Assembly: GCF_002159495.1 (NCBI RefSeq)
Contig: NZ_NFIT01000014.1
Location: forward strand, 1 to 64,000
DNA: 64,000 nucleotides
Reading direction: 5' to 3'
Origin: Olsenella sp. An293
Lineage (GTDB): Bacteria; Actinomycetota; Coriobacteriia; Coriobacteriales; Atopobiaceae
This document shows positions 32,118-52,813 of the stretch, in pieces (within the stretch, counting starts at the first letter, position 1; every line of letters starts with the position of its first letter). Under the pieces are notes generated by a model. It saw only the letters and a program-made list of their open reading frames with translations, did no database searches and had not been told where the DNA came from. A program made the translations under genes and the position numbers.

Positions 32118-32255
32118 GGTGCGTACAGAGCCCCTGAGGGTATGTACACCATCCGTGTTCGGACGTCTTACGTTTGCGCTGGTAGATGCCCTAGCGAGAA
32201 GGACGAGCAGGACTGAGGGGTGTACATACCCTCGAGGCGCGGCGTACACACCCTC
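32118..32255. repeat. TGTACA half-site cluster, family D copy 1
   Basis: GAGGGTATGTACACC (32136-32150) and its exact reverse complement (32219-32233) flank a 68-base spacer. Weaker half-sites lie outside them (GTGCGTACAGAG near 32119, CGTACACACCCTC near 32242). The spacer contains CGAGAAGGAC at 32195-32204, 14 bases from the right inner site. Copy 2 at 52673-52813 has the same plan. It fills the gap between the metallopeptidase stop and the UbiB stop (convergent genes). Confidence 0.85.
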
Positions 32256-42745: not shown

Positions 42746-45049
42746 CTACAGCATGTCGTAGGCGTCGATGTCCACTGCAATGTTAATACCCCGAAGCCGC
42801 CCGAGCGAGCCCACGCACGCGCCGAGAAGCGCGCCGGGGTCCGCGTCGACGGGCGCCTTGACCATGAGGTGGCGCCGCGTCTGGTCCTTCACCCGGGCCT
42901 TCACGCAGTCCGCGGGGCCCAGGACCTCCCAGCCGGGCGCCTCCCCCAGCCGCTCGCGCACGGCGCGGGCGAGCTCGTCGGTCGCGGCGCGGACGCCGCG
43001 CTCGGAGCGGCCCCAGACCACGACGTTGGAGAGGCGCGAGAAGGGCGGGTAGGAGGCCTCGGCGCGCTCGGCGAGCTCGGCGTCGAGGAAGACGGCGCGG
43101 TCGTGGGCGGCCACCGCCCGCATGGCGGGGTGCGTCGCCCAGTAGGTCTGCACGATGACCTCGCCCGGGCGCCCCCCGCGCCCAGCGCGCCCCGCCACCT
43201 GCTCGAGCAGGTCGTAGGTGCGCTCGGCGGCGCGGAAGTCCGGCAGCTTGAGCATGGTGTCGGCGTTGACGACGCCCACGAGCGTGACCTCGGGGAAGTC
43301 GAGCCCCTTGGCGATCATCTGCGTGCCCACGAGCACGGCGCACTCTGCGGCGTCGAAGCGCTCGAGCAGCCGCTGGTGGGCGCCCTTCTCTCGCGTGGTG
43401 TCCGCGTCCATGCGGATGATCTCGACGCCCTCGGGCAGAAGCATCGCGAGCTCGTCCTCGACGCGCTGGGTGCCCACGCCAAAGGCGGCGAGATAGCGGC
43501 TGCCGCAGCTGGGGCAGCTCGTGGAGGGGTCGGGGAAGGCGCGGACGGGCCAGGCGCGCCCGCAGGTGTGGCAGACGAGGGCGTGGGTTCGCTCGTGATA
43601 GGTGAGCGCCGTGGAGCAGTGCGGGCACTCGGGCACGCAGCCGCACTCGCGACACATGAGGAAGTTCGCGAAGCCGCGGCGGTTAAGCATGAGCACCGCC
43701 TTCTCGCGGCGCCGCGCCACGCCCCTGAGGGCCTCGGCGAGCGGGGCCGAGAAGATCGACCGCCCGCCCCCGCGGAACTGCTCGGCCATGTCGACGACCG
43801 TGACCCTGGGAAGCGCCGCCCCGGCGGGTCGCTCGGGCATCTCGACGCGCCTCCAGCGCGCGTCGCGAAAGACCCCCTCCCGGCAGCGCCGCAGGCTCTC
43901 GAGCGAGGGGGTGGCCGACCCCAGCACGAGCGCGCAGCCGCGCTCGGCCGCCATGCGCGCCGCGACCTCGCGGGCGTGGTAGCGCGGGGACTTGTCCTGC
44001 TTGTAGGAGCCCTCGTGCTCCTCGTCGATGATGATGAGGCCGGGGTCGGCGAGCGGGGCGAAGAGCGCCGAGCGCGCGCCCACGACCACGCGGGCGCGCC
44101 CGGCGCGCACGAGGTCCCACTGGTCGAAGCGCTCGCCGGCCGAGAGGCGCGAGTGGAGCACCGCCACGTCGTCGCCGAAGCGGCTGCGGAAGCGTCCCAC
44201 GGTCTGCGCCGTGAGCGAGATCTCCGGCACCAAGACCAGCGCTCCGCGGCCGGCGGCGAGGGCGCGCTCGATGGCGGCGAGGTAGACCTCGGTCTTGCCC
44301 GAGCCGGTGACGCCGTCCACGAGCACCACGTCGCCGCGGGCCGCCTCGCGGGCCTCGTCGATGGCGGAGAGGGCGGCGAGCTGCCCCGCGGTGAGGCGAT
44401 CGGGTCGGGGGGCCTGCGCCGAGGAGAGCGTGGTGCCCTCGCCGCCGCGCAGGACGCGCCGGGTCTCGACGGCGACGACGCCGCGCCGCGCGAGGGAGGA
44501 GACGGCGCTCGAGGCGCCCGGGATGGTGGCCGAGAGCTCCGAGACGCGCTGCGGCCCCTGCCGGAGCGCCTCGATCACGGCGCGCTGGCGCGACGCCGTG
44601 CGGGGCGGGACGTAGTCGTTGGCGGAGGGCGTCAGCGCCGCCCAGCGGGCGTCGACCGCGCCGGCGCGCTCGCAGACGAGCTCCCAGGGGGCGTCCTCGG
44701 AGGGGCGGGTGACGCGCACCTTCTGACCGGGCGCCAGAAACGGGCGCACCGCCTCGCAGAGCGGGCAGGCGTACTCCCCCGCCATCCAGGACGCGAGGCG
44801 CGCCGACGCCTCGTCGAAGGCCGGCGGCGCGAGGACCTGCTCGACGGGGAGCAGCCTGCCGGGGTCGACGCCCTCGGGCGCCTCCTCCGACACCCCCATC
44901 ACGTAGCCGACGGCCAGGCGATGCGAGAAGGACACGAGCACCGTGGCCCCGACGGCCACGTCCTGCGCGAGCGCCTCGGGCACGGCATAGGAGAAGGTCC
45001 CGTCGAGCGCGCGCGTGGGTATATCGAGCGCGATGCTCGCGTAGCGCAT
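42746..45049 (-). CDS. priA: Primosomal protein N' (replication restart helicase PriA)
   Basis: PriA recognises stalled forks and reloads the replisome. The 767-residue protein has an N-terminal 3'-DNA-binding domain, helicase motif I GVTGSGKTEV, DEEH box IIIDEEHEGSYKQ, GSATPS, zinc-binding CRECGCVPECPHC...CHTCGRAWP...CPSCG, and helicase motifs GTQMIAKGLDFPEV and QVAGRAGRGGRPGEV. The ATG at 45049 is the first that fits the family; the open frame upstream runs into the PP2C gene region and is not used. The ribosome-binding site is weak (GGGGG). The leader carries three tandem copies of a GGCGAGAAG repeat. It is first gene of priA-def-fmt-rsmB. Confidence 0.94.
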   Translation of the reverse strand: MRYASIALDIPTRALDGTFSYAVPEALAQDVAVGATVLVSFSHRLAVGYVMGVSEEAPEGVDPGRLLPVEQVLAPPAFDEASARLASWMAGEYACPLCEAVRPFLAPGQKVRVTRPSEDAPWELVCERAGAVDARWAALTPSANDYVPPRTASRQRAVIEALRQGPQRVSELSATIPGASSAVSSLARRGVVAVETRRVLRGGEGTTLSSAQAPRPDRLTAGQLAALSAIDEAREAARGDVVLVDGVTGSGKTEVYLAAIERALAAGRGALVLVPEISLTAQTVGRFRSRFGDDVAVLHSRLSAGERFDQWDLVRAGRARVVVGARSALFAPLADPGLIIIDEEHEGSYKQDKSPRYHAREVAARMAAERGCALVLGSATPSLESLRRCREGVFRDARWRRVEMPERPAGAALPRVTVVDMAEQFRGGGRSIFSAPLAEALRGVARRREKAVLMLNRRGFANFLMCRECGCVPECPHCSTALTYHERTHALVCHTCGRAWPVRAFPDPSTSCPSCGSRYLAAFGVGTQRVEDELAMLLPEGVEIIRMDADTTREKGAHQRLLERFDAAECAVLVGTQMIAKGLDFPEVTLVGVVNADTMLKLPDFRAAERTYDLLEQVAGRAGRGGRPGEVIVQTYWATHPAMRAVAAHDRAVFLDAELAERAEASYPPFSRLSNVVVWGRSERGVRAATDELARAVRERLGEAPGWEVLGPADCVKARVKDQTRRHLMVKAPVDADPGALLGACVGSLGRLRGINIAVDIDAYDML

Positions 45050-45059
45050 GGCAGCCCCC

Positions 45060-45127
45060 GTCCTTCTCGCCGTTCTTCTCGCCCGAACTTCTCGCCCGAA
45101 GTTGTCTTCGCTGGACCCTTGATTGTA
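45060..45127 (-). promoter_or_regulatory. priA leader: -10 box and three tandem GGCGAGAAG repeats
   Basis: On the minus strand TACAAT (45122-45127) is a near-consensus -10 with transcription expected near 45115. The short leader then contains three direct repeats of 12-13 bases: GGGCGAGAAGTTC (45085-45097), GGGCGAGAAGAAC (45072-45084) and GGCGAGAAGGAC (45060-45071). The last is the window-wide over-represented word. The region could be an operator array or a cluster of uptake-like sequences. Confidence 0.6.
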
Positions 45128-45167: not shown

Positions 45168-46016
45168 TCAGAGCCCGAGCCAGAACATGCTCGCGTCGTC
45201 GGAGCGCTTGAGGCGGGGGAAGCGCCGGTAGTCAGGGTCGTCTGCCTCGAGCTCGCGAAGGCGCGCGAGCACCGCGCGGGCGCGCCGCGGCGTGAGCGAG
45301 CCGAGCTCGGCGGCCGCGTCGGCGACGCCGAAGAGGTCGAAGGCGCGCCAGAGCCCGTCGGTGAGGCCCGCCACCGCGGACAGCTCGTCGCGCGGGAGCG
45401 AGAGGCGGCGCAGGTGCGCGAGGCCGTCGCCCGTGGGGTCGAGGCACCAGTAGCCGCCCTCGACGTTGCGCAGGAGCCGATTGGCGCGGATGACGTCGTC
45501 GACGAGCCGCCGTCGCTCGGGGCCCGAGAGCCGGCCCCACGGGTCGCGCTCGGACATGAGCGCCACGGCCCGGGCGTCGAGCGCCTCGAGCTCCTCGTCG
45601 GTCGAGACGAGCAGGCGCCCGTCGCGCGTGAGGGCGAGAAGCGGCGAGTCCCCGAGCCCGTAGAGCTCGACGGTCCCGGGGCCGGCCACGGCCAGGGCGA
45701 GCGTCGCGGAGGGGACGGCGAGCGGGTCCATGCCCGCCACGGGCCCTCCGAGCGCGCGCTCGAGCTCCGCACGGGCCGCGGCGACGGCGCCCTCGAGCGA
45801 CGCGCGACCGTCCGCGCCGGCGTCCAGGGCCTCGCAGACGCGCTCGCCCACCGCATGGGCGAGCCACTGCGCGTTGGTGGAAAAGCGGTCCTGGAAGAGC
45901 GGCTCGCCGGCGAGGCCCGACGCCCCGTCGATGACGACGCCGTAGCGCTCCGTGGCGCGCGCGAAGTCCTCGTTGGCGGCGTTGCCGCGGTCGCTCAGAA
46001 AGAAGAACCGGCCCAT
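45168..46016 (-). CDS. PP2C-like protein phosphatase domain protein
   Basis: This 282-residue protein resembles the PPM/PP2C metal-dependent Ser/Thr phosphatase fold: SDRGNAANEDFA near the start, VIDGASGL (about 27-34) with the metal Asp, LYGLGDSPLLALTRDGRLL in the middle, GLTDGLWRAFDLFG and a final SDDASMFWL resembling the DD(A/C)S motif. Some canonical residues differ (DGASG rather than DGMGG), so activity is uncertain. It starts 14 bases after the DUF6483 gene stop, so the two probably form a pair. Target kinase unknown; no Hanks-type kinase is in the window. Confidence 0.75.
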   Translation of the reverse strand: MGRFFFLSDRGNAANEDFARATERYGVVIDGASGLAGEPLFQDRFSTNAQWLAHAVGERVCEALDAGADGRASLEGAVAAARAELERALGGPVAGMDPLAVPSATLALAVAGPGTVELYGLGDSPLLALTRDGRLLVSTDEELEALDARAVALMSERDPWGRLSGPERRRLVDDVIRANRLLRNVEGGYWCLDPTGDGLAHLRRLSLPRDELSAVAGLTDGLWRAFDLFGVADAAAELGSLTPRRARAVLARLRELEADDPDYRRFPRLKRSDDASMFWLGL

Positions 46017-49766: not shown

Positions 49767-50175
49767 GGGTCCTCCAGACGGCCATAAACCATCACATGGT
49801 ACCCAAACGGGCCCCGGGGTAGTCCCAAACGGCCTAAACTGCCTCGCCGAGGACGCACGGCGCGCGCAGGCCATGCAAAATCCGCGTTCGATCCATTTTG
49901 TCGGCGACGCTCCGACAAAACCTCGCTTCGATCCATGCGATTTGGGCGTCCTTAAGCCGACTCGAGGCCGGTCCATAATATGGTCCGTTAATTTCATACA
50001 GTTTATTGATCATTGGCTGGCCATCGGGCCCAGAAAACCATGGATCGAAGCGAGATTTTGTCGAGCCGGTCGCTCCAATATGGACTGAACGTCAAAAGTG
50101 CACCCCACCCCCTCGCGCGGCGCGATCGTCGGGCCCGACGGGGCCCGATTCCGGAGGGCGCGCTACAATGCCCGC
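49767..50175. other. 409-base AT-richer gap with nested inverted repeats
   Basis: A 25-base sequence at 49913-49937 (starts CGACAAAACCTCGCTTCG) and its reverse complement at 50039-50063 match at 24 of 25 bases across about 100 bases of unusually AT-rich DNA. TTTTGTCGG/CCGACAAAA (49897-49905 and 49912-49920) makes a small hairpin inside, and TTCGATCCATTTTGTCGG (49888-49905) partly repeats the same word. The genes on either side diverge, so promoters must lie here. I see no protein-coding frame or tRNA. Confidence 0.65.
50164..50169 (+). promoter_or_regulatory. -10 box of the YgjP-like gene, possibly leaderless
   Basis: TACAAT ends 6 bases before the start codon at 50176, so transcription should begin at or next to the ATG. 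No Shine-Dalgarno lies at the proper distance; GGAGGG at 50152 is too far and precedes the promoter. No good -35 is present. Confidence 0.5.
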
Positions 50176-52672: not shown

Positions 52673-52813
52673 GAGGGTGTGTACACCACCCCACGAGGGT
52701 ATGTACACCGCACCGGCGGCGCGTCCTTCTCGGCAACGCTCTGACCTGCGGTTTGTTGGCCCGCTCTCGATGGAGGGGTGTACATACCCTCAGGGCCCAC
52801 TGTACATACCCTC
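52673..52813. repeat. TGTACA half-site cluster, family D copy 2
   Basis: Two direct half-sites GAGGGTGTGTACACC (52673-52687) and GAGGGTATGTACACC (52695-52709) are followed by a 67-base spacer. Two inverted sites come next: GGTGTACATACCCTC (52777-52791) and TGTACATACCCTCG (52801-52814). The spacer carries the 10-mer as GTCCTTCTCG (52723-52732), 13 bases from the inner site, mirroring copy 1. It lies between kinase and ABC genes and takes up half of the 302-base gap. Confidence 0.85.

Follow-up and report, generated by a model that had tools for sequence, protein, structure and literature searches.

Tandem repeats in the priA leader of Olsenella sp. An293 and a genome-wide motif distributed like a DNA uptake sequence

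The leader of priA in Olsenella sp. An293 contains three tandem copies of a short word that is abundant throughout the genome. We give an even chance to the reading that this genome-wide motif is a DNA-uptake-sequence-like tag and that the priA repeats are a small tandem expansion of it, a reading drawn from sequence comparison. The motif occurs in high numbers on both strands alike, is concentrated by lineage, exceeds what codon usage predicts, is gained and lost by substitution and is scarce near relaxase genes, and the genomes that carry it encode competence genes. Its distribution resembles that of an uptake sequence; it is not classed as a member of that group here, as uptake preference is the defining feature.

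The priA leader and its repeats

The window, the whole 64,000-nucleotide stretch of DNA analysed, belongs to a genome of 2.31 Mb in 35 contigs (G000) and contains priA, which encodes the replication restart helicase (42746..45049, minus strand; TIGR00595, E 3.4e-170). The priA leader carries GGCGAGAAG three times in tandem on the minus strand, with spacings of 12 and 13, between TACAAT, a putative -10 box (45122..45127, minus strand), and the priA start. The copy nearest the promoter (45088..45096) is followed by TTC, the second (45075..45083) by AAC, thereby also matching CGAGAAGRAC, and the third, nearest priA (45063..45071), by GAC; an exact CGAGAAGGAC (45060..45069, minus strand) overlaps this third copy. 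The observation of the earlier note, three direct repeats between TACAAT and priA at 45060-45127, one of them with the exact over-represented 10-mer, is thus confirmed. The gene upstream of priA encodes 282 aa (45168..46016, minus strand) and has no NCBIfam match.

CGAGAAGGAC is the top-scoring over-represented 10-mer in the window, with 22 copies observed and 2.77 expected under an order-4 Markov model. GGCGAGAAG occurs 24 times in the window against an expectation of 1.57, a count reached by none of 100 shuffles, and has 888 copies genome-wide compared with 88 for its reversed control. Given this excess over expectation, shuffles and reversed control, chance does not explain the observation.

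Of 80 listed relatives, 79 were readable upstream of priA (L058, without a priA start, was left out). Leaders were scored in the 31 of these 79 that are listed with TACAAT or TAGAAT at most 130 bases upstream of priA, the other 48 being unscored. Exact CGAGAAG is present three times in one scored leader, twice in one, once in 17 and not at all in 12. In L063 the leader is built of 14-base units that contain CGATAAG five times and CGACAAG once, six near-copies in all. CGATAAG as a genome-wide dialect of L063 is ruled out, as its genome contains 840 copies of CGAGAAGRAC and 52 of CGATAAGRAC. Since the leader units are mutated and the genome mostly carries CGAGAAGRAC, the L063 sequences point to local amplification of a mutated copy.

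Neither repeat number nor repeat sequence is conserved in the priA leaders of close relatives, which is the sequence half of what the earlier note had named as refuting its reading, the other half being expression: exact copies range from zero to three, and L063 has a mutated unit. The same variation favours one half of the suggestion that the repeats arose by local amplification or serve as an operator, namely local amplification. The alternative, an operator of priA, is not supported, in view of the copy-number variation together with the genome-wide abundance of the word, which occurs approximately 1,000 times, within and outside coding sequence and in either orientation. A single leader copy is common (17 of 31), which leaves room for a weak leader effect. 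Counted over the 60 bases before each of 359 starts, CGAGAAG is found 34 times in sense and 15 times in antisense orientation, in gene calls from a simple purpose-written model whose start-calling error could affect these upstream counts. The sense preference could reflect either secondary use near ribosome-binding sites or such error, and gives a hint of a leader preference.

The clustering had also been taken to set the priA leader apart from single copies elsewhere, which proved wrong. An array pattern of three CGAGAAG with gaps of 3-12 bases has eight matches at six places in G000 and is present in 30 of the 31 genus genomes searched, in all of which together the reversed control has four matches. 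Apart from the priA leader, the arrays of G000 lie within the comEA reading frame, at the first codons of one gene (contig C8), at the end of another (C23) and in two gaps separating called genes (C31 and C32). Among the matches listed, many arrays have identical spacers, the pattern that slippage would leave, and some are simply coding-type repeats of nine bases. The spacers of the priA array are unlike one another; if slippage made it, the array has diverged since. By its sequence the priA array seems to be a tandem expansion of the genome-wide motif that happened locally, and it appears incidental for priA, with a priA-specific role probably absent. Such a reading removes a false lead, as the repeats would need no priA-specific explanation.

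Abundance, lineage range and layout of the motif

The G000 genome contains 1,109 copies of CGAGAAGRAC (569 forward and 540 reverse) compared with 33 of the reversed control. All 30 genomes of relatives that were searched, reached through 30 of the 80 listed priA loci, also carry the motif, at 63-1517 copies with the strands roughly equal, and CGAGAAGGAC alone has 155-798 copies in 16 genus genomes. Among 246 genomes drawn from across the class, CGAGAAGRAC has 255-1451 copies in the 13 members of the same genus. Numbers are also raised in other genera of the family, including g30 (650-867), g29 (334-412), g12 (395), g14 (171-294), g16 (290), g26 (241-258) and one member of g32 (403, the other having 113), and beyond the family in g51, which belongs to another family of the order (248-299), and in a single genome from yet another family (222). 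All other genomes of the draw have at most 174 copies, commonly 40-80. High counts are clustered in one genus and certain genera related to it. In g51 (G258, G304, G322 and G344), the counts compare with roughly 50 in much of its own family.

In sampled intergenic plus antisense DNA of G000 and G103, CGAGAAGRAC was observed 247 times against 4.4 expected under an order-2 Markov model. Its single-base variants in the same DNA stay below 6-fold in 24 of 29 cases; the exceptions are C1G, G2A, G4T, R8T and A9G, of which G4T (29-fold) and R8T (24-fold) are the strongest. The flanks of 167 intergenic sites favour G at positions -1 (80%), 0 (64%) and 11 (64%), and the core together with these favoured flanking bases gives the consensus GGCGAGAAGRACG. 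An ungapped comparison of 760 priA codons across 19 hand-chosen genomes identified 10 positions that carry CGAGAAG in at least one genome, eight of which come and go by substitution. At the other two, CGAGAAG is kept in all 19 genomes, and the right-hand half of these sites departs from the motif. The idea that the motif travels with a mobile or MITE-like element is rejected, given this gain and loss by substitution and the lack of a conserved flank past approximately 13 bases.

The motif is independent of codon usage to a large extent. When synonymous codons were shuffled within each of 359 CDS (40 shuffles), 69 antisense copies were observed compared with 5.5 expected (sd 2.2) and 78 sense copies compared with 49.6 (sd 4.1). 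The antisense excess was also found in G106 (45 vs 4.1) and G096 (16 vs 2.5), while sense copies exceeded expectation in G106 (37 vs 22.4) and were at expectation in G096 (19 vs 17.1). Furthermore, motif density per kb is higher in intergenic than in coding DNA in G000 (1.32 vs 0.38), G103 (0.76 vs 0.40) and G106 (0.36 vs 0.25), and slightly so in G096 (0.14 vs 0.11). Gaps between convergent genes are enriched in G000 (3.33 per kb); this enrichment is absent in G103, G106 and G096 and is rejected as a general rule, not being reproduced outside G000. Some inverted motif pairs are present in G000. With replichores assigned by judgement from the majority gene strand, the leading strand carries 97 and the lagging strand 88 of 185 copies in G103, and 64 and 46 of 110 in G106, a mild lean; the motif has no clear replication-strand skew.

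The motif is rare near mobile DNA. Ten relaxase matches were identified in eight of the 31 genus genomes, and nine of the surrounding stretches contain 11 copies of CGAGAAGRAC in 164,763 bases, compared with 120 in the 220,000 bases of eleven other stretches (the tenth match, on a 3.9 kb contig of G162, was left out). This corresponds to 0.067 per kb around relaxase genes and 0.545 elsewhere, so that the motif is about eight times rarer there. The eleven comparison stretches are from four of the relaxase-bearing genomes (G069, G103, G115 and G159), and the relaxase stretches of these same four genomes hold 7 copies in 99,505 bases. The 11 copies near relaxases still exceed the order-3 expectation of 3.2, in stretches that may include ordinary chromosome at their edges. 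The phage marker PF04860 was found in none of the 31 genus genomes.

Competence genes and the interpretation of the motif

ComEC and T2SSE are encoded in all 31 genus genomes and DprA in 30, the exception being G152, which is rated 81% complete. As these genes are also present in control genomes (ComEC in 10, T2SSE in 14 and DprA in 11 of 14), they constitute permissive evidence rather than proof of competence. Two further components were noted in G000 alone. Its comEA encodes SLBB and helix-hairpin-helix domains, matches TIGR00426 above the cut-off and overlaps the comEC start. In addition, contig C31 encodes a TadE protein, a 63 aa Flp-like pilin (matches below cut-off), two T2SSF proteins, a T2SSE ATPase, a ParA/CpaE-like ATPase and a SAF-domain protein resembling CpaB (match below cut-off), a gene set that we read as a putative Tad/Flp operon. 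In Micrococcus luteus, transformation requires Flp pili and ComEA/EC, which are said to occur together in many actinobacteria (PMC4322843). The comEA gene of G000 (C2:15279-15983) holds an in-frame motif array, DAGEKDAGEKDAGEKD. G096, a single-contig member of the genus, has 255 motif copies, intact ComEC, T2SSE and DprA matches and a second DprA-like stretch with internal stops; a loss or change of the system is possible in this genome.

If the motif acts as an uptake tag, the cells would be competent and would preferentially take up motif-bearing fragments of related DNA via ComEA/ComEC and the Tad/Flp-pilus apparatus. The fragments taken up would be recombined, and the core chromosome would build up copies, unlike mobile DNA of recent arrival. 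The priA repeats would then be a tandem expansion of a GGCGAGAAGRACG-type motif, probably via replication slippage. We further propose, at somewhat less than even confidence, that Thermophilibacter, the probable genus of G000, and related Atopobiaceae may have evolved a self-DNA uptake sequence independently of Neisseriaceae and Pasteurellaceae, which would be read by Tad/Flp-pilus competence, would be the first in Gram-positives, and whose copies would also expand locally, as in the priA leader and comEA. Several findings count against an uptake tag, including the low copy number of G096 (255) beside its intact competence-gene matches, the leading-strand lean of G106 (64 vs 46), the restriction of the convergent-gap excess to G000 and the sense bias upstream of starts (34 vs 15).

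PMC12616744 describes Neisseriaceae and Pasteurellaceae as the sole families in which self DNA is known to be recognised through short, enriched motifs. The neisserial DUS dialects are asymmetric words of 10-12 bases with 943-5918 copies per genome (PMC3630211), are mostly intergenic and often form inverted pairs (PMC2397512). Tandem arrays are not known as a neisserial DUS trait from these sources, and the word 'tandem' is absent from PMC2397512. The motif resembles DUS in being an abundant asymmetric word with strand symmetry, an intergenic excess, concentration by lineage and scarcity in mobile DNA. In contrast to DUS, its sequence is unrelated, its host is Gram-positive with high GC, the pilus genes are of the Tad/Flp type rather than those of the ComP-bearing type IV pilus of Neisseriaceae, motif positions 8-9 are looser, and tandem arrays are common. 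With the Pasteurellaceae USS it shares the high enrichment of a short self-DNA motif in the genome (PMC12616744), whereas host and machinery differ. Among the open-access papers listed, titles and abstract openings describe no such motif for Olsenella, Atopobiaceae or Coriobacteriia. If the motif biases uptake, it would represent a third origin of sequence-based DNA self-recognition, this one in Gram-positive bacteria that use another type of pilus, and a DNA word would allow prediction of gene exchange among common gut Coriobacteriia. The motif makes competence in this group of Coriobacteriia directly testable.

Like the motif, known Chi sites are abundant asymmetric oligomers of the ordinary chromosome; they also show a bias to the leading strand. 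A Chi-like recombination signal, which would stop or switch a RecBCD/AddAB-type nuclease and be kept for chromosome repair, could account for a very abundant asymmetric 10-mer that lies in ordinary chromosome rather than near relaxase genes, and for the lean observed in G106. Unlike Chi, the motif is without clear replication-strand skew, with G103 close to evenly divided, its excess over codon-shuffled genes is larger in antisense than in sense, and it is denser between genes, all of which make this reading unlikely. We consider it equally unlikely that the motif is bound by a protein that organises the chromosome or acts in regulation, in which case the priA array would be an operator or a strong binding site; the sense preference upstream of starts and the single copy in 17 of 31 relatives listed with a promoter box are in its favour, and the number of copies (approximately 1,100 on both strands, in coding and non-coding DNA), the range of zero to three copies in priA leaders and the mutated unit of the L063 array speak against it.

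A leader RNA element, by which the repeats would influence how the priA transcript is translated or how stable it is, would suit their position between TACAAT and the start, adjoining a purine-rich region before the ATG. This seems a rather remote prospect: the predicted fold of the leader is less stable than that of its shuffles (z 1.58, with 189 of 200 shuffles folding at least as well), and an Rfam scan of the window gave no family at or above its gathering score. A structured leader RNA finds no support in either result. Most improbable of all is a codon-usage or peptide artefact (Glu-Lys-Asp/Asn runs) plus chance. It fits those copies and arrays that are coding, such as DAGEKDAGEKDAGEKD in comEA and the first codons of the C8 gene, as well as the background of about 40-80 copies common in other Coriobacteriia, and is contradicted for the bulk of copies by the antisense excess that remains after synonymous shuffling, which rules it out for most of them, and by the intergenic excess.

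Other repeats in the genome

The G000 genome contains additional repeat types. An intergenic element with TGTACATACCCT is located at 32137-32232 and 52696-52812 of the window and on other G000 contigs, often as two copies at 22 bp and as two blocks inverted 83-84 bp apart. It has 84 copies in G000 and up to 117 in the genus, where it was found in 14 of 31 genomes, and a CGAGAAG copy is often nearby. TTCGATCCAT repeats, found at 49887-50049 of the window and on C1 and C3, form 40-bp tandem pairs and inverted blocks, with 16 copies in the 435 kb sampled. Furthermore, TTGACAATATAACCTGACG-type repeats, with ATTGTCAA nearby, are present in 11 copies, some as inverted pairs (G000 C1, C2 and C3; L081-L100).
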